Assembly: GCF_000284015.1 (NCBI RefSeq)
Contig: NC_016943.1
Location: forward strand, 1,467,541 to 1,531,540
Source of the DNA: Blastococcus saxobsidens DD2
GTDB lineage: Bacteria; Actinomycetota; Actinomycetes; Mycobacteriales; Geodermatophilaceae
Direction of reading: 5' to 3'
DNA length: 64,000 nucleotides
This document shows, one piece after another, positions 49,354 to 58,862 of the stretch. Numbering within the stretch: position 1 is the stretch's first letter; the number at the start of each line of letters is the position of its first letter. The translations under genes were made by a program, and so were the position numbers. The notes below the pieces were generated by a model that made no database searches, had not been told where the DNA came from, and worked only from the letters and a program-made list of their open reading frames with translations.

Positions 49354-51073
49354 CCGGCCGCCCGCCGTCCGGGAGGTCCCCGGGCTGGCGGCGATCGCGC
49401 TGGCCACCCTCGCCGTGCTGGTCACGGCGGCCGACACCTATGTCGTCGTCCTCGCGCTGCCCGACATCCTCGCCGGCGTCGGGGTCGGTCTGGACGAGCT
49501 GCAGAAGGCGACGCCGATCGTCGGCGGCTTCCTGCTCGGCTACACCGCCACGCTGCCGCTCCTGGGCCGGCTGGCCGACCTGCGCGGGCGGACGCCGGTG
49601 CTCATCGGTTGCCTCCTGCTGTTCGCGCTCGGGTCGCTGCTGACCGCCGCGGCGGAGTCGCTGGGGCTCGCAGTGGCCGGACGGGGGCTGCAGGGCATCG
49701 GTGCCGGCGGGCTGGTCCCGGCCACGCTCGCGCTGGTCGCCGACCGCTGGCCGCCCGAGCGCCGGTCGCTGCCCCTCGGCGTGGTCGGGGCCGTCCAGGA
49801 GGCGGGCGCCGTGCTGGGCCCTCTGGCGGGGGCGGCGGTGCTGGCCCTGGCGGACTGGCGGGCCATCTTCTGGCTGAACCTGCTGCTCGGGCTGGGGCTC
49901 GCGGCCGGGGTGGTCGTCACCGGGCGGGTGCGGCGGCCGGACCCGGTGGGGCTGGTGCTGGCCGTCGCCGCCGCGGCCGCGCTGGGGCTGCTGCTCGCCG
50001 AGCCCGCCGCGCTGGCCGAGGACATCACCTTCGGCCTGCTGTACGTGCCGCTCGTGGCGGGGCAGGCGTGGACGGCGCCCCTGCTGCTGGCCACCGTGCT
50101 GGCTGCCGTGGCTCTGGTCGCGTGCAGCCTGCTCCGGCCGGCCGGGGCCGTGCTGCCGCTGCGGGGGCTCGGGCGGCTGGCCCGGGAGGTCGACGTCGTC
50201 GGCTCGGCGCTGGTCGTGCTGTCGCTGGGCGCGCTGGTCTGGGCGTTCGCCGCCGCCGACACCTCCCGGGAGGTGGTCGCGCACGGCTGGGTGCTGCTGC
50301 CGCTGGCCGGCGTCGCCGCGGTGCTGTTCGTGCTGCACGAGCGGCGGACGCCGAACCCGGTGCTGCCGCTGGCCGCGCTCCGGCCGGTGGGTGCGTGGGG
50401 GGCACTGCTGGTCAACCTGCTGGTGGGTGCCGCGCTCGTCGCCGCGCTGGTCGACGTCCCGCTCTTCGCCCGTGCCACCACCACGCCGGGTGACCAGTTG
50501 GGCGCGGCGCTGGTGCTGCTCCGGCTGCTGGTCGCCGTTCCGGTGGGCGCCGTGGCCGGCGGGTGGTTGTGCCGGGTGGTCGCGCCACGGGTGGTGGCCG
50601 GGGCCGGCATGGCGCTGACCGCGGTCGCCTTCGTCGCCATGACCGGCTGGGACGAGCGGTCGCTGGACGGTGCGTGGTCGACGGTCGTGCTGCTCGCCGC
50701 GGGCCTGGGCTTCGGCCTGGCCATCGCGCCGGTGAACGCCGTGCTGCTCGCCGTCACCCGGGCCGAGGTGCACGGCAGCGCCGGCGCGCTCGCCGTCGTC
50801 GCCCGGACCGTCGGCATGCTCGCGGGCCTGTCGCTGCTCACCGCCGTGGCGCTGCGCCGGTTCACCGCCGAGATCGCCGCGATCGGTACGCCGATGGAGG
50901 TGTGCCCGACGAGCCCCGCCGACTGTCCCGCCTACGACGCCGCGACCGAGACGGCGCTGCTGACCCAGCTGCACACGGTCTTCGCCGGGGCGGCGATCGC
51001 GGCAGGTCTGGCGGCGGTCGCCGCCCTGGTGCTGCTGCGCGGGGGGACAGTCAGGGGTTCAGCGCGATCCTGA
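49322..51073 (+). CDS. MFS transporter, 14-helix type (P55-like)
   Basis: A 583-residue DHA2/EmrB-type major facilitator. Motif A is GRLADLRGRTPVLIG (~residue 78) and motif C lies in VGAVQEAGAVLGPLAGAAVL (~158). A large loop with the cysteine pair CPTSPADCPAYD comes before the last helix, as in P55 proteins. It is coupled to the LprG-like lipoprotein gene by a 32-base overlap. Predicted role: export of lipid or lipophilic drug handed to the lipoprotein. Its 3' end overlaps the convergent Clp-N gene by 23 bases. Confidence 0.88.
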   Translation: MSRSAHRPPADRPPAVREVPGLAAIALATLAVLVTAADTYVVVLALPDILAGVGVGLDELQKATPIVGGFLLGYTATLPLLGRLADLRGRTPVLIGCLLLFALGSLLTAAAESLGLAVAGRGLQGIGAGGLVPATLALVADRWPPERRSLPLGVVGAVQEAGAVLGPLAGAAVLALADWRAIFWLNLLLGLGLAAGVVVTGRVRRPDPVGLVLAVAAAAALGLLLAEPAALAEDITFGLLYVPLVAGQAWTAPLLLATVLAAVALVACSLLRPAGAVLPLRGLGRLAREVDVVGSALVVLSLGALVWAFAAADTSREVVAHGWVLLPLAGVAAVLFVLHERRTPNPVLPLAALRPVGAWGALLVNLLVGAALVAALVDVPLFARATTTPGDQLGAALVLLRLLVAVPVGAVAGGWLCRVVAPRVVAGAGMALTAVAFVAMTGWDERSLDGAWSTVVLLAAGLGFGLAIAPVNAVLLAVTRAEVHGSAGALAVVARTVGMLAGLSLLTAVALRRFTAEIAAIGTPMEVCPTSPADCPAYDAATETALLTQLHTVFAGAAIAAGLAAVAALVLLRGGTVRGSARS

Positions 51074-51590
51074 GGTCGGTGCGTAGTGCACCGGCGTCGA
51101 CCCCCCGGTCGTGCAGCACCTTCATCGCCAGACCCTCGCCCTCCCGAATCAGGCCCAGCGCTATGTGCCCGTCGGTGATGGTCTTGGTCCGCATCGCGAT
51201 GGTCTCCCGGAGCGACAGCTCCAGCACCTTCTTCGCGCGGGGGCTGAACGGGATGTGTTCAGGGCTTGCCCTTCCGCTGCCGGGTGGCCGGTCCAGCGCG
51301 CCTGGCCCGAAGGTGGCTTCGACCGAGCTGCGGACGGCGTCCAGGTCGATGCCCACGGCTTCCAGCGCCCCGGCATCCAGCTCCGGCCCGCCGACGTGGG
51401 CGGCGACCGCCTCGATCACGGCGTCATGGGTCAGTCCGTGCCGGACGAGCACGGCGGCGCTGCGGGTGTCCTGGGCCAGCAGGGCCAGCAGCAGGTGCTC
51501 GGTGCCGATCGAGCGGTGGTGCAGCTGCCGGGCCTCCCGCTGCGCCCCGACGACGACCGCCCGGGCCTCGGGAGTGAAGCGTTCGAAAAT
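51051..51590 (-). CDS. Clp N-terminal-domain protein, probable ATT start
   Basis: A 179-residue protein made of two Clp-N repeats as in ClpC, but with no ATPase domain. The first is FERFTPEARAVVVGAQREAR, then HRSIGTEHLLLALLAQ; the second is FSPRAKKVLELSLRETI, then ITDGHIALGLIREGEGLAMK. Homologues start MFERFT. Here the codon before FERFT is ATT (51590-51588) and no ATG, GTG or TTG lies near it in frame; the first standard start (GTG, 51452) would delete most of repeat one. Initiation at ATT, 2 bases after the HTH stop, is proposed, with GGGGGACTG as a poor ribosome site. It may be an adaptor or decoy for Clp substrates. Confidence 0.75.
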   Translation of the reverse strand: MFERFTPEARAVVVGAQREARQLHHRSIGTEHLLLALLAQDTRSAAVLVRHGLTHDAVIEAVAAHVGGPELDAGALEAVGIDLDAVRSSVEATFGPGALDRPPGSGRASPEHIPFSPRAKKVLELSLRETIAMRTKTITDGHIALGLIREGEGLAMKVLHDRGVDAGALRTDLRIALNP

Positions 51591-51592
51591 GG

Positions 51593-51826
51593 TCAGTCCC
51601 CCCGACGGAGCGGCCCGCGGCCGCTCGCGTACTTCTTGTGCACGGCCTGCCGGCTGACGCCGAGCAGTTGGGCGATCTGCTCCCAGGTCCAGCCCTGGTC
51701 GCGGGCGTTCCGCACCTGCAGGGCCTCCAGGCGCTCGACGAGCACCCGCAGCGACCGGACGGCCTTCAGCCCGACCGTGGGGTCCTTGCTGCCGGCGGCG
51801 CCGGCCACCTGCGCTGTATCGGACAT
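51593..51826 (-). CDS. small helix-turn-helix protein
   Basis: A 77-residue protein whose C-terminal half is a helix-turn-helix, WTWEQIAQLLGVSRQAVHKK, preceded by a helix RSLRVLVERLEALQVRNARD. It is paired with the Clp-N gene 2 bases downstream, an arrangement that recurs in actinobacteria. The ATG at 51826 lies 7 bases after a TAAGTT -10 element, so the mRNA is probably leaderless. Upstream frame extension to 52111 crosses the promoter and is rejected. The target is unknown. Confidence 0.85.
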   Translation of the reverse strand: MSDTAQVAGAAGSKDPTVGLKAVRSLRVLVERLEALQVRNARDQGWTWEQIAQLLGVSRQAVHKKYASGRGPLRRGD

Positions 51827-51833
51827 GGCTGTC

Positions 51834-51862
51834 AACTTAGGTTGCTCCTGATTCCCTGTCAA
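51834..51862 (-). promoter_or_regulatory. promoter of the HTH/Clp-N operon
   Basis: On the minus strand TTGACA (51862-51857), a 17-base spacer and TAAGTT (51839-51834) form a near-consensus sigma-A promoter ending 7 bases before the ATG. The -35 lies in one arm of the inverted repeat CTGTCAA-N6-TTGACAG (51856-51875), a possible autoregulatory operator. Confidence 0.65.
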
Positions 51863-51926
51863 CGCTGATTGACAGCGTGGGCGACGGAGCGCCGTGCCAG
51901 ACTGAGGGAGAGCCGCGACCACGGCT

Positions 51927-51970
51927 CCCGGACGAGCGGTGCCGTACCCGGTGTGCGACAAGACGGCGCC
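51927..51970 (+). promoter_or_regulatory. guanidine-III (ykkC-III) riboswitch
   Basis: The sequence contains, in order, the conserved elements of this class: CCGGACGAG (51928-51936), GTGCCGTACCCGG (51939-51951) and ACAAGACGGCGC (51958-51969). GTGCCGT pairs with ACGGCGC (one G-T pair) and CCGG with CCGG, as in the known pseudoknot. The ribosome site AGAGGAG (51971-51977) follows at once. Binding of guanidinium should control access to it and switch on the exporter gene. Confidence 0.88.
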
Positions 51971-51983
51971 AGAGGAGCCCGCG

Positions 51984-52298
51984 ATGTCGTGGTTGGTGCT
52001 GGTCGTGTCAGGGGTGCTCGAGGCGGTGTGGGCGGCGGCCCTGGACCGGTCGGAAGGGTTCAGCCGGCTCCGGCCGACGGTGCTCTTCGTCGTCGCCCTG
52101 GCCGCGAGCATGGCCGGGCTCGCCTACGCCATGCGCGAGCTACCCCTGGGCACGGCCTACGCGGTGTGGGTCGGCATCGGTGCGGTGCTCACCGTCGTCT
52201 ACGCGATGGTCACCGGTGCGGAGTCGGTATCGGTGGTGAAGATCCTGCTGCTCGCCGGGATCGTCGGGTGCGTCGTCGGGCTGAAAGTTCTGCACTGA
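51984..52298 (+). CDS. SMR-family guanidinium exporter (Gdx/SugE-like)
   Basis: A 104-residue, four-helix small multidrug resistance protein. The essential membrane glutamate is in VVSGVLEAVWAAALDRSEGF (Glu ~13), and GTAYAVWVGIGAVLTVVYAM is the usual dimer/substrate helix. Sequence and the guanidine-III riboswitch directly upstream identify it as a guanidinium/proton antiporter (Gdx) rather than a broad drug pump. A single gene implies a homodimer. The ATG at 51984 follows AGAGGAG. Confidence 0.9.
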   Translation: MSWLVLVVSGVLEAVWAAALDRSEGFSRLRPTVLFVVALAASMAGLAYAMRELPLGTAYAVWVGIGAVLTVVYAMVTGAESVSVVKILLLAGIVGCVVGLKVLH

Positions 52299-52389
52299 CC
52301 CTCGCGCTGAGTGAGCAGTCGCGGCAGGCGGCCGCGCCGAGGCCGCATGTGTCGGCGGCCGCAACTGCCCACCCATCCGCGCGGCGGTC

Positions 52390-53364
52390 TCAGAGGGTGA
52401 AGACGATCTTCCCGTTGGTACGGCCCTCGAGCATGCGCTGGAAGCCCTCCCGGGCCTCGGTCAGCGGCAGCTCGACGTCGATCTGCGGCCGGATCCCGGT
52501 GACCCGGCACATCTGGATCAGGGCCTCGAGCTCCGGCTTGGTGCCCATGGTGGAGCCGATGACCGACAGCTGGGTGAAGAAGACCCGGTTCAGCTCGGCG
52601 CCCGGGTTGAAGCCGGTGGTGGCGCCGGAGGTGACCAGGACGCCGCCGGGCTTGAGCGACTTGATGCTGTGGCTCCAGGTGGCCTCGCCGACGGTCTCCA
52701 TGACGCCGTCCACCCGCTCGGGCAGCCGGGCGCCGGTCTCGAAAGCCTGCTCCGCGCCGAGCGCGAGCGCCGCCGTCCGCTTCTCCTCGCTCCGGCCGGT
52801 GACCCACATCCGGTAGCCGGCGGCACGGCCGAGCACGATCAGCGCCGTCGCGACGCCGCCGCTGGCGCCCTGTACCAGGACGGTCTGGCCCGGCCGCAGG
52901 CCGGACTTCACGAAGAGCATCCGGTAGGCGGTCAGCCACGCGGTGGGCAGGCAGGCGGCCTCGGCGAAGGAGAGCTCGGCCGGCTTGGGCAGCAGGTTCC
53001 GGCGGGGGACGGCGACCTTCTCCGCCATCGATCCCTGGTGCACCTCCGACAGGAGCGAGCGCTTCGGGTCGAGCGTCTCGTCGCCCATCCAGTGGGGCGT
53101 GGAGATGACCCCGTGGACGACGACCTCGTTGCCGTCCTCGTCGATCCCCGCGGCGTCGGTGCCCAGGATCATCGGCATCCGCTCGGCCGGCAGCCCGATG
53201 CCCTGAAGACTGAACAGGTCGTGGTGGTTGAGCGAGACCGCCTTCACCTGGATCGTCGTCCAGCCCTCCGGCGCTTCCGGCTCGGGGCGCTCACCCACCT
53301 CGAGCACGGAGAGCGGGTCCTTCGGGGCGGGGGCGGAGACGAAGGCAGCCAGCATGCCCCGCAC
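52390..53364 (-). CDS. zinc-binding-type alcohol dehydrogenase / quinone oxidoreductase
   Basis: A 324-residue medium-chain dehydrogenase/reductase. The GroES-like N-terminal domain (VKAVSLNHHDLFSLQGIG) precedes a Rossmann domain with TVLVQGASGGVATALIVLGR (~residue 155). The residues usually binding catalytic zinc are not all evident, so a QOR-like, NADPH-dependent enoyl reductase/quinone reductase is likely. Start: the GTG at 53364 has GGAGG 10 bases upstream; the ATG at 53355 (MLAAFVSA) is the alternative. It is followed by 91 bases without a gene before the SMR stop on the other strand. Confidence 0.86.
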   Translation of the reverse strand: MRGMLAAFVSAPAPKDPLSVLEVGERPEPEAPEGWTTIQVKAVSLNHHDLFSLQGIGLPAERMPMILGTDAAGIDEDGNEVVVHGVISTPHWMGDETLDPKRSLLSEVHQGSMAEKVAVPRRNLLPKPAELSFAEAACLPTAWLTAYRMLFVKSGLRPGQTVLVQGASGGVATALIVLGRAAGYRMWVTGRSEEKRTAALALGAEQAFETGARLPERVDGVMETVGEATWSHSIKSLKPGGVLVTSGATTGFNPGAELNRVFFTQLSVIGSTMGTKPELEALIQMCRVTGIRPQIDVELPLTEAREGFQRMLEGRTNGKIVFTL

Positions 53365-54205: not shown

Positions 54206-55213
<1,008 letters not shown>

Positions 55214-55223
55214 GCCCCCGAAT

Positions 55224-55613
55224 CTAGGCCCGTCCCCCGGGGAGGACGACCAGCCGTGGTGGGACGGGCGCCTCGGGGGCGGGCCGGGCCGGGTCAGGAT
55301 CGGACCGATGCCTCCGGCCGGCGGGGTGTCGGGGCGAGGGGACACGCTCCCCGGTGCGTGCGCGTCGCGACGGGTGCCCGGCGACACGGGCGACCGCGGC
55401 CAGCAGCCCGGCGTGCCGGCGCGGATCGGGCTCGAGCGCGGCCAGCACCTTTTCCAGGGCACCGCGCCCGGCGGCGGTGTAGGCGCCCTCCGGCTGCCCG
55501 GCGAGGGCGAGGGCGACCGCCGCGGCCTCCTCGGGCGTGAGGGTGACCGGCGGCAGCGTGGTGGGGGAGCGGGACCCGGTGCGGTTCACGGACCGGAGCC
55601 TGGCAGGAGCCAC
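55224..55613 (-). pseudogene. possible remnant of a YafY/WYL-type regulator
   Basis: The reading frame contains a stretch, PPVTLTPEEAAAVALALAGQ followed by AYTAAGRGALEKVLAALEPD, that resembles the linker just after the HTH of YafY-family WYL regulators (LPPLxLTxDEAxAL...ALxKV). Neither HTH nor WYL domain is present, and the flanks are Arg/Pro-rich, so this would be a decayed fragment. It could instead be chance coding-like composition in the selD-selC gap, in which nothing else was recognised. Confidence 0.25.
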
Positions 55614-55642
55614 CGACAGTTCCGGGGAGACGGCCGGCCACG

Positions 55643-55648
55643 TAGGGT
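55643..55648 (+). promoter_or_regulatory. -10 element of the tRNA-Sec gene
   Basis: TAGGGT lies 7 bases before the first base of the tRNA, so transcription may start at or very near G1 of the mature tRNA. A TTCCGG at 55619-55624 (18-base spacer) is only a weak -35. Confidence 0.45.
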
Positions 55649-55655
55649 GCCCGGC

Positions 55656-55751
55656 GGAGGCGTCAGGGTGTCTGGTGGCCCCCGCGGCCTCTAAAGCCGA
55701 CGTGGCCGAGTAGCTCGGTCAGGCGGGTTCGATTCCCGTCCGCCTCCGCCA
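55656..55751 (+). tRNA. selC: tRNA-Sec with amber anticodon CTA
   Basis: The 96-nt RNA has selenocysteine-tRNA features. The acceptor GGAGGCG(T) (55656-55663) pairs with CCGCCTCC (55740-55747; the eighth pair is T/C), the discriminator is G and CCA is encoded. The D-loop TCTGGTGG matches the bacterial Sec type, on a D-stem with one T/C mismatch. A 7-bp long variable arm is formed by GGCCGAG/CTCGGTC around TAG (55704-55720). The T-arm is GCGGG-TTCGATT-CCCGT. The anticodon stem GGC/GCC region encloses loop CTCTAAA (55689-55695): U33, then CTA at 55691-55693. It should read UAG, not UGA. selA starts 28 bases downstream. Confidence 0.92.
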
Positions 55752-55779
55752 ACACTTCCCGCACATACGCTGCGGGGCG

Positions 55780-57105
55780 ATGACTCAGGACCCGCACGGC
55801 ACCGACCCGCGCCGCCAGGTGCCGCGCACCGACACGCTGCTCGCCGACCTCCGCCTCGCCGGCGCCGGTGAGCGCCTGGGCCGCGGGCTGGTGAAGGACG
55901 CCGTCCAGCGGGTGCAGCAGCGGGTGCGGGCCGGTGAGGTGGCTCCGGACGCAGCGGTCGACGCGGTCCTGGCCGAGCTGCCGGCGACGGCGTCGAGCCT
56001 CCGCCCGGTGCTGAACGCGACCGGCGTCATCGTGCACACCAACCTCGGTCGGGCTCCGCTGTCGGCGGCCGCGGTGGAGGCGATCACCGCCGCCGCCGGG
56101 ACGACCGACGTCGAGCTCGACCTCACCACCGGCCGTCGTGGGCCCCGCGGAGCGGCGGCGATCGCCGCGCTGCTCGAGGCCGTGCCCGCCGCCGAGGCGG
56201 CGATCGTGGTGAACAACTGCGCGTCCGCCCTCGCGCTCGTCGCCACGGCCCTCGGTCAGGGCCGGGAGCTGGTGCTGGCCCGCGGCGAGCTGGTGGAGAT
56301 CGGTGACGGCTTCCGCATCCCGGAGCTGCTGGAGGCCACGGGCGCGCGGCTGCGCGAGGTCGGCACGACCAACCGGGTGACCGTCGACGACTACCGCGGC
56401 GCCCTGGGCCCGGAGACCGGCGCGGTGCTCAAGGTCCACCCGTCGAACTTCGTGGTGCGCGGCTTCACCCGGGCGGTCGAGGTGGCCGAGCTGGCCGGCG
56501 CACTCGGCGGCGTCCCCCTGGTGGCCGACGTCGGCTCGGGGCTCCTCCGCCCGCACCCCCTGCTACCCGAGGAACCGGACCTGCAGACCACGCTGGCCGC
56601 CGGCGCCGACCTGGTGCTGGCGAGCGGGGACAAGCTGCTGGGCGGCCCGCAGGCGGGGCTGGTCCTCGGCCGGGCCGACCTGGTGCAGCGGTTGCGCCGG
56701 CACCCGCTGTACCGGGCGCTGCGGGTGGACAAGACGACGCTCGCCGCCCTGGAGGCCACCCTGCGCGGCCCGCTCCCGCCGGTGCAGCAGATGCTCGCCG
56801 CCGACGTGGACGGCCTGCGCGCCCGGGCCCGTGCACTGGCCGACCGGCTGTCCGGCGCCGGGGTGGACGCCGTCGCGGTCGACGCGGATTCGCGGGTCGG
56901 CGGGGGAGGGGCGCCCGAGCACCCGCTGCCCGGCGCCGCGGTCTCCCTGCCGGCGTCGTTCGCCGAGCCGCTGCGCCGGGGCGCACGACCGGTCGTCGGC
57001 TACCTCGAGGACGACCGGACGCTGCTGAACCTGCGCAGCGTCCCGTCCGCCGCCGACGCCGAGCTGGCTGCCGCGGTGCTGGAGGTGGCCCGCCGGTGGA
57101 CGTGA
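55780..57105 (+). CDS. selA: L-seryl-tRNA(Sec) selenium transferase (selenocysteine synthase)
   Basis: A 441-residue PLP enzyme that converts Ser-tRNA-Sec to Sec-tRNA-Sec with selenophosphate. An N-terminal tRNA-recognition domain precedes the aminotransferase-like core: LNATGVIVHTNLGRAPLSA (~residue 78), VVNNCASALALVATAL, VADVGSGLL, and the PLP lysine K285 in LASGDKLLGGPQAG. The length is slightly short of E. coli SelA (463). It recognises the whole body of tRNA-Sec rather than the anticodon, which explains why an anticodon change is tolerated. selB follows with a 10-base overlap. Confidence 0.95.
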   Translation: MTQDPHGTDPRRQVPRTDTLLADLRLAGAGERLGRGLVKDAVQRVQQRVRAGEVAPDAAVDAVLAELPATASSLRPVLNATGVIVHTNLGRAPLSAAAVEAITAAAGTTDVELDLTTGRRGPRGAAAIAALLEAVPAAEAAIVVNNCASALALVATALGQGRELVLARGELVEIGDGFRIPELLEATGARLREVGTTNRVTVDDYRGALGPETGAVLKVHPSNFVVRGFTRAVEVAELAGALGGVPLVADVGSGLLRPHPLLPEEPDLQTTLAAGADLVLASGDKLLGGPQAGLVLGRADLVQRLRRHPLYRALRVDKTTLAALEATLRGPLPPVQQMLAADVDGLRARARALADRLSGAGVDAVAVDADSRVGGGGAPEHPLPGAAVSLPASFAEPLRRGARPVVGYLEDDRTLLNLRSVPSAADAELAAAVLEVARRWT

Positions 57106-58862
57106 CCCCCGTCGGTATGGACGTCGTCGCGACCGCGGGTCACGTCGACCACGGCAAGTCGGCGCTGGTGCGCGCCCTCACCGGCATGGAGCCCGACCGC
57201 TGGGCCGAGGAGCGCCGCCGGGGCCTCACCATCGACCTCGGTTTCGCCTGGACGACGCTGCCCTCGGGCCGGCGGCTGGCCGTCGTGGACGTGCCGGGTC
57301 ACGAGCGGTTCGTCGGCAACATGCTGGCCGGCGTGGGCTCGGTGCCCGCCGCGCTGGTCGTCGTCGCCGCCGACGACGGCTGGTCGGCGCAGACCGCCGA
57401 GCACGTCGCCGTCCTCGACGCACTCGGCGTGCGGCACGCACTGCTGGCCGTCACCAAGTCCGACCTCGCCGACCCCGCCCCGGTGCTCGACGACGTGCGC
57501 GAGCGGCTGGCCGCGACGTCGATGGGCGAGGTGCCGGGGGTGGCGGTGAGCGCGGTGACCGGCGCGGGGCTGCCGGAGGTCGCCGCAGCCCTGGAGGCGC
57601 TGCTCTCCGGGTTGCCCGCGCCGGACCACGAGGCGCCGGTCCGGCTGTGGATCGACCGTGCCTTCACGATCAAGGGAGCCGGGACGGTGGTCACCGGCAC
57701 CCTCGCCGCCGGGACGGTGGCGCCCGGGGACCGGTTCCTGCTGGGCGGCCGGGAGGTGACCGTGCGGGGCGTGCAGTCGCTCGGCGAGCCGGTCGAGCGG
57801 GCCGCGGCCACCGCGCGCGTGGCGCTGAACCTCCGCGGGGTCGCGGTGGAGGACCTCTCGCGCGGCGACGCCCTGCTCACCCCCGGGGCGTTCCGGCTCA
57901 CCGACGTCGTGGACGTGACCCTCGCTGCAGAGCCCGACGAGCGGCTGCCCACCGAGCCGGTGGTGCACGTGGGGTCCGCGACGGTCGGTGCCCGGCTCCG
58001 GCCGCTGGAGGGCGCGGCCGTGCGGCTGCGGCTGAACGCGCCGCTCCCGCTGAGGGTGGGCGATCGGTTGCTGCTGCGCGATCCGGGTTCCCGGCGGGTG
58101 CTGGGTGCCGACGTGCGCGACGTCGATCCGCCCGGGCTGCGCCGCCGGGGCGCGGCCCGTCAGCGCGCCGCGGAACTCGCGGCCCAGCCCGGGGGAACCG
58201 CGGGGGCGGCCGCCGACCTGGCCCGCCGGCGGATCGTGCGCGCCGCGGACTTCGCGGCCATGGGCTGGCCGGTGCCCGTGGGCGCCACCCCCGCCGGGCC
58301 GTGGCTGCTCGCCGCCGGGCTGGCCGACGAGCTGGCGGCCCGGGTGCCCGACGTCGTCAGCCGCTACCGGAGGCTGCGCCCGCTGGAGCCGGGACCACCG
58401 GCGGAGGTGGTGCGCCGGGCGCTCGACCTGCCCGACGCCGATCTGGTGCCCGCCCTCGTCCGGGCACCGCTGGTGCTGCGCGAGGGCCGGGTCGTCGACG
58501 GCGCCGCGGACCTCCCGCCGGCGGTGCAGCGGGCGGTCGACGACGTGCGCGCCCGCCTCGCGGCCGACCCGTTCGCGGCGCCCGAGGCCCCCGACCTGGC
58601 GGCCGCCGGGCTCGGCGTCCGGGAACTGGCCGCGGCCGTCCGCAGCGGTCAGCTGGTGCGCGTCGGGGAGCAGGTCTACCTGGCGCCGGGGGTCGCCGAC
58701 GTGGCGCGGGCCCGGCTGGCCTCGGTCGCGCAGCCCTTCACCCTCAGCCAGGCCCGGCAGGCGTGGGGAACCAGCCGCCGGGTCGCCGTCCCGCTCATGG
58801 AGTGGCTCGACGCCCGGGGCGTCACCGTCCGGTTGCCCGACAACACCCGCCGGCTGCGGTAG
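57096..58862 (+). CDS. selB: selenocysteine-specific elongation factor SelB
   Basis: A 588-residue EF-Tu-like GTPase that delivers Sec-tRNA-Sec to a recoded codon next to an mRNA SECIS hairpin. G1 is ATAGHVDHGKSALVRALTG (~residue 15), G3 DVPGHERFVGNMLAGV and G4 VTKSDLADP. Domains II-III precede C-terminal winged helices (~380-588, ending PLMEWLDARGVTVRLPDNTR) that bind the SECIS. The GTG at 57096 has GGAGGTGG 8 bases upstream; the ATG at 57117 lacks a site. It terminates in TAG, the very codon its tRNA should decode. Confidence 0.93.
   Translation: MDVTPVGMDVVATAGHVDHGKSALVRALTGMEPDRWAEERRRGLTIDLGFAWTTLPSGRRLAVVDVPGHERFVGNMLAGVGSVPAALVVVAADDGWSAQTAEHVAVLDALGVRHALLAVTKSDLADPAPVLDDVRERLAATSMGEVPGVAVSAVTGAGLPEVAAALEALLSGLPAPDHEAPVRLWIDRAFTIKGAGTVVTGTLAAGTVAPGDRFLLGGREVTVRGVQSLGEPVERAAATARVALNLRGVAVEDLSRGDALLTPGAFRLTDVVDVTLAAEPDERLPTEPVVHVGSATVGARLRPLEGAAVRLRLNAPLPLRVGDRLLLRDPGSRRVLGADVRDVDPPGLRRRGAARQRAAELAAQPGGTAGAAADLARRRIVRAADFAAMGWPVPVGATPAGPWLLAAGLADELAARVPDVVSRYRRLRPLEPGPPAEVVRRALDLPDADLVPALVRAPLVLREGRVVDGAADLPPAVQRAVDDVRARLAADPFAAPEAPDLAAAGLGVRELAAAVRSGQLVRVGEQVYLAPGVADVARARLASVAQPFTLSQARQAWGTSRRVAVPLMEWLDARGVTVRLPDNTRRLR

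Follow-up and report, generated by a model that had tools for sequence, protein, structure and literature searches.

A guanidine-III riboswitch aptamer in the short leader of a predicted guanidinium exporter gene of Blastococcus saxobsidens

In Blastococcus saxobsidens DD2, a gene for an SMR transporter, which automatic annotation would name a multidrug or quaternary-ammonium pump, is preceded by a compact, riboswitch-like leader, and the locus raises the question of which compound this protein exports and how its synthesis is controlled. All positions given here refer to the window, i.e., the whole stretch of 64,000 nucleotides analyzed. A preliminary description had placed a guanidine-III riboswitch at 51927-51983, immediately before the SMR gene. 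Covariance-model search of the whole window with Rfam (cmscan) revealed a match to the Guanidine-III family (RF01763) that reached 64.0 bits, compared to a gathering threshold of 36 bits (E = 6.8e-11, counting both strands and 4227 Rfam families). The Infernal check suggested for this locus was thus positive. The match covered the model at full length (positions 1 to 67 of 67) with zero non-canonical pairs flagged. It was one of three Rfam matches above gathering thresholds in the window and the sole RF01763 match in the 4.88-Mb genome, in which no guanidine-I (RF00442) or guanidine-II (RF01068) riboswitch was found. The parts of the leader are listed in Table 1. By direct reading, the P2 5' strand and the second CCGG are separated by AC, and a linker, ACAAG and the P2 3' strand follow. 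The proposed interval proved correct with respect to the pseudoknot and the ribosome site, both of which lie inside it, but it missed the 5' hairpin, on whose final base it begins; its other end lies one base before the ATG at 51984. Its placing of the ribosome site one base past the aptamer was true in substance, with P2 ending at 51970, the model at 51972, and AGGAG starting at 51973.

Table 1. Parts of the leader and the gene that follows, in 5' to 3' order (window positions)
Feature	Position	Strand	Basis or remark
Extended -10-like element TGCCAGACT	51895..51903	+	Conserved position in family loci; start site inferred
Guanidine-III (ykkC-III) riboswitch aptamer	51907..51972	+	RF01763, 64.0 bits, E 6.8e-11
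5' hairpin GAGCCG/CGGCUC, six-base loop	51910..51927 (51910-51915 / 51922-51927)	+	cmscan alignment
Pseudoknot helix 5' strand CCGG (P1 of crystal structure)	51928..51931	+	Pairs with 51948-51951
Third strand ACGAG, pocket bases C51933 (C6) and G51934 (G7)	51932..51936	+	Conservation; roles as in PMC5696562
P2 5' strand with pocket base G51944 (G17)	51938..51945	+	Pairs with 51963-51970
Pseudoknot helix 3' strand CCGG	51948..51951	+	Covariation and conservation in relatives
P2 3' strand ACGGCGCC	51963..51970	+	cmscan and pairing in relatives
Shine-Dalgarno (SD) sequence AGGAG, adjoining the aptamer, six-base spacer to ATG	51973..51977	+	Direct reading
SMR transporter gene, Gdx (SugE) subtype, 104 aa	51984..52298	+	PF00893

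Since folds of this kind are easily found in G+C-rich sequence, a chance or decayed resemblance without function was considered. The aptamer was compared with its relatives. Of 396 genomes sampled phylum-wide, 51 had an RF01763 match (42 above the cut-off); the element was also found in 66 of 96 genomes sampled from the family Geodermatophilaceae and was retained in all 23 Blastococcus genomes searched. All matches of the phylum and family surveys were fetched (119 loci); five weak ones (L096, L097, L113, L118, and L119) were excluded on visual inspection as probable false matches, since they lacked either the core motif or a fitting gene. The remaining 114 loci comprised 112 distinct sequences. 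Numbering was transferred to the window from the crystal structure of the Thermobifida fusca guanidine-III riboswitch (5NWQ; Huang et al. 2017, PMC5696562), in which C6, G7, and G17 are pocket bases. These three bases were identical in all 112 distinct relatives, as were A5, A8, U18, and A19, while G9 was kept in 109; in total, aptamer positions 2, 4-8, 17-21, 23, 34, and 35 were invariant. The four pairs of the pseudoknot helix were formed in 111, 112, 112, and 112 of the 112 relatives (447/448 cells), i.e., 99.8% pairing, whereas 500 shuffles gave a mean of 90.3% and at most 92.2%. Changes on both sides were seen at two of these pairs, one from GC to CG (10 relatives) or UA (10), and another from CG to UA (5) or GC (2). 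These changes are not independent events, as the relatives share ancestry; still, three forms of one pair would be hard to explain without a helix. Because the MAFFT alignment of the 5' hairpin was faulty (60% paired), this element was tested by a hairpin search instead. Of the 114 relatives, 99 had a comparably strong hairpin ahead of the pseudoknot, versus 786 of 2280 random anchors. Given the E-value, the presence in 23/23 genus genomes, the invariant pocket, and the covarying helix, a functionless resemblance is vanishingly improbable and, as far as sequence can show, already refuted. The covariance-model match, the crystallographic pocket bases, and the covariation of the pseudoknot bear out the guanidine-III riboswitch claimed just before the SMR gene and make the identity of the 51907-51972 element as a genuine aptamer of this class secure.

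The gene product matched PF00893 with 81.8 bits (cut-off, 23.7), and its closest match in the PDB was Gdx-Clo (6wk5, E = 1.1e-19). An SMR gene followed the aptamer in 108 of the 114 kept loci, and residues G10, E13, W16, S42, Y59, and W62 were present in the window protein as well as in 108/108 of these SMR-linked loci. Position 16 is Trp in Gdx proteins and Gly or Ala in the Qac subtype (PMC7695847); in EmrE, it is Gly. The NCBIfam SugE equivalog was by far the best-scoring SMR model, but its score of 105.8 bits lay below the cut-off of 126, so the protein was assigned to the Gdx type by its pocket residues and not as a SugE equivalog. On these grounds, it is likely a guanidinium exporter. 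Guanidinium as the substrate, which the preliminary description had derived from the riboswitch, is thus supported independently by Trp16 of the transporter, and its view of an otherwise generic SMR transporter did not quite hold, since this residue is that of Gdx proteins. A second PF00893 match in the genome was a C-terminal piece within a 62-aa stop-bounded open frame that had no N-terminal half; no full-length SMR gene other than 51984-52298 was therefore found in the genome. The C-terminal SMR-like piece, located outside the window (G000:C1:1386940-1387059), is possibly a gene remnant. A plasmid search with the SMR protein retrieved only more distant relatives, together with a handful of actinobacterial proteins (70-74% identity), and contributed nothing further. 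Family membership, conservation, covariation, gene order, and transporter subtype were thereby established in the present analysis.

Upstream of the aptamer, no canonical -35/-10 pair was found. Of the 66 family loci, 57 carried the extended -10 form TGNNANNNT no more than 18 bases ahead of the aptamer, 43 of them at exactly -12, compared to a background of 15 in 7260 upstream positions; it also preceded the aptamer in 24 of the 48 kept loci outside the family. The form had 16 sites on the forward strand of the window. Given this element at 51895-51903, transcription likely starts at the 5' end of the aptamer or within a few bases of it, and the leader would then consist of the aptamer and the ribosome site. 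TTGACA at 51869-51874 was considered as a -35 element of the SMR promoter and rejected: its spacer to the -10 element is 23 bases and varies among relatives, and the motif sits in a repeat beside the divergent HTH gene. Between the end of the RF01763 model and the ATG there are only 11 bases; among the 108 SMR-linked relatives, 62 had 10 or 11 bases from the aptamer end to the start codon. The ribosome site follows the aptamer too closely for a terminator to fit in, and no terminator-like site was found within 51800-52420.

Folding tests addressed what the bound aptamer would do to the ribosome site that it adjoins. According to published work on the class, the folded RNA is stabilized by guanidine, and the ribosome site thereby becomes accessible (PMC5696562). 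In the window, opening of the SD sequence cost 1.46 kcal/mol in the free ensemble versus 0.10 kcal/mol with the aptamer locked, and the free folds shifted with the choice of the 3' end. Across 83 relatives, the cost barely differed (3.75 free versus 3.40 kcal/mol locked); opening was more than 1 kcal easier with the locked aptamer in 29 and harder in 16, so that a simple masked-to-open model is poorly supported by two-dimensional folding. Base-pair probabilities were computed for 95 relatives with an SD sequence, i.e., the 108 SMR-linked loci minus 10 with CUGACGAG cores, which the anchor pattern missed, 1 with over 60 bases separating aptamer and start codon, and 2 that were SD-less. In these, the SD sequence was about half unpaired and had no dominant partner. 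By duplex energies, the best complement of the SD sequence in the 83 relatives was the 3' strand of the 5' hairpin together with CCGG, with -10.1 for the locus's own strand, -9.6 across loci, and -7.1 for the shuffled region (2.2% of permutations as low), values to be read with the caveat that the loci share ancestry and that both sides are conserved for other reasons. Masking by this strand is not claimed, since in the window the very stable 5' hairpin (predicted fold of 51907-51931, -13.8 kcal/mol) would outcompete the anti-SD pairing. Overall, the folding tests appear to agree only weakly with the published exposure mechanism.

This weakness, together with the position of the conserved extended -10 element, which suggests that the aptamer stands right at the start of the mRNA, would also suit a riboswitch that acts mainly on mRNA stability. 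In that case, the bound pseudoknot at the 5' end would block scanning by RNase E, with ribosome access playing a minor part; such shielding is stated for guanidine-III in a review (PMC12186494) that cites Richards and Belasco (2021). Protection of this kind is compatible with translational control and does not exclude it, and a translational effect is hard to avoid when the SD sequence abuts the aptamer. As the main mode of action, stability control is a possible but rather unlikely alternative. Short pseudoknot riboswitches such as SAM-II and preQ1 block the 30S subunit sterically, and the SD sequence of the window begins three bases past the last P2 base, so an OFF switch acting in this manner was also considered. 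An exporter repressed by its own substrate would be physiologically senseless, however, and the SD sequence of the window was more open, not less, in the bound-like state, as given by the opening costs above. In addition, all three guanidine classes then known were described as ON switches (PMC5696562), and we regard OFF control as highly improbable. Control of translation appears to be the likeliest mode of regulation. As put forward in the preliminary description, it agrees with the leader geometry and with what has been proposed in print for this class, although folding singled out no masking partner.

Taken together, the locus can with high confidence be read as a guanidine-III ON riboswitch that makes up almost the entire 5' leader of a single-gene mRNA encoding a Gdx-type SMR guanidinium/H+ antiporter. 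We infer the ligand, the ON direction, and the translational level from the published riboswitch class. Accumulating guanidinium would lie over C51933, bound between G51934 and G51944 at their Hoogsteen edges. Binding would pull the ACGAG third strand into the groove of P2 and lock the H-type pseudoknot, and the locked aptamer would abolish rival structures that otherwise vie for the adjoining ribosome site; it may also protect the mRNA from RNase E. Translation of the exporter would consequently go up with guanidinium, as expected of an ON switch for guanidine detoxification.

The surroundings of the locus showed several further features. A divergent operon upstream (51051-51826, reverse strand) encodes an HTH protein of 77 aa and a protein with a Clp_N domain. 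The intergenic region at 51830-51875 contains TGTCAAC at 51830 and TGTCAAC-N5-TTGACA at 51857-51874, which hold the only copies of TGTCAAC in the window. Repeats of the forms GTCAAC..GGTTG and GTCAAC..TTGAC were present in most of 19 genus loci inspected, and those at 51830-51875 are possibly the operator of the HTH protein. Further downstream, at 54206-58862, lies a selenocysteine cluster with SelA, SelB, and tRNA-Sec (55656-55747, forward strand), in which an AIR-synthase-type protein encoded on the reverse strand is probably SelD.

Among relatives, the same aptamer also preceded genes other than SMR. At three loci (L002, L013, and L014), it was located upstream of arginase/agmatinase-family genes, which matched PF00491 at L002 and L013 and started about 120 bases past the aptamer at L013 and L014; this arrangement looks guanidine-hydrolase-like. 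At four further loci, all above the cut-off (L007, L025, L101, and L123), Guanidine-III was found directly upstream of PF06695 genes instead of SMR genes. These loci represent four genera of one other actinobacterial family (Nitriliruptoraceae-type genomes), and the encoded proteins are 152-155 aa long. The fifth above-cut-off RF01763 match in this family (L122) precedes an SMR frame. In this locus, which stems from a metagenome-assembled genome (MAG), the usual ATG position of the frame reads ACG, by sequencing error or as a non-AUG start. Scanning named genomes with an alignment of the four PF06695 proteins yielded 20 loci, three of which carried Guanidine-III upstream. Two of these, L126 and L127, are Nitriliruptoraceae MAGs and probably the same records as L007 and L123, respectively; the third, L128 (a MAG labelled Microthrixaceae), scored 32.9 bits, just below the cut-off of 36, and constitutes a fifth PF06695 locus. 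Upstream of the 17 other PF06695 loci (36-67% identical), no Guanidine-III match was found at E up to 0.1. An SMR match was absent from two of the three PF06695-locus genomes searched, one of the two being only 88% complete. PF06695 is described as a "putative small multi-drug export protein" family linked to DedA/Tmem41b, whose members are predicted transporters of unknown substrate (PMC7818093). The riboswitch-linked PF06695 proteins may be guanidinium exporters unrelated to SMR, a tentative reading of gene order to which we give slightly less credence than to its opposite. If true, it would give a substrate to part of a superfamily with unsettled substrates. No paper joining PF06695 and guanidine was found in the literature searched, and one may still be in print.

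A guanidine-III riboswitch before an SMR gene is not new in kind, as ykkC-III elements before emrE and speB genes in Actinobacteria were published in 2010 (Weinberg et al., PMC2864571), and guanidine binding, structure, and the link to SMR proteins are established (PMC7266159, PMC7736828, PMC7695847, PMC5696562, PMC8492726). For B. saxobsidens, the gain is a firm functional label, i.e., guanidinium efflux that is predicted to be guanidine inducible. The larger gain is the use of the riboswitch as a tracer, which makes PF06695 proteins candidate exporters of guanidinium.

Compared to known systems, the transporter resembles Gdx-Clo in the six residues named above and in its length. Unlike Gdx-Clo, it has Asp-Arg instead of Lys-Tyr at residues 21-22; position 21 varied among the 108 loci, 55 of which had Gly, 29 Asp, and 12 Lys. 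The aptamer shares with the T. fusca structure 5NWQ all pocket bases, the H-type pseudoknot, A5/A19, and the linker to ACAAGAC, as well as P2 (12-18 with 35-41 in T. fusca, equivalent to 51939-51945 with 51963-51969) and the C20/G29 pair (C51947 with G51957). As in T. fusca, a guanidinium-exporter-type gene lies downstream, in keeping with the placement of this riboswitch class ahead of genes for guanidine transport or degradation. In contrast to T. fusca, C51937 and G51938 replace the regular-triplex bases G10 and U11, third-strand positions that vary among relatives too. Finally, the ribosome site is 16 nt from the aptamer in T. fusca (PMC5696562) and 2 bases from the end of P2 in the window, so that direct abutment of the SD sequence is a modest difference.
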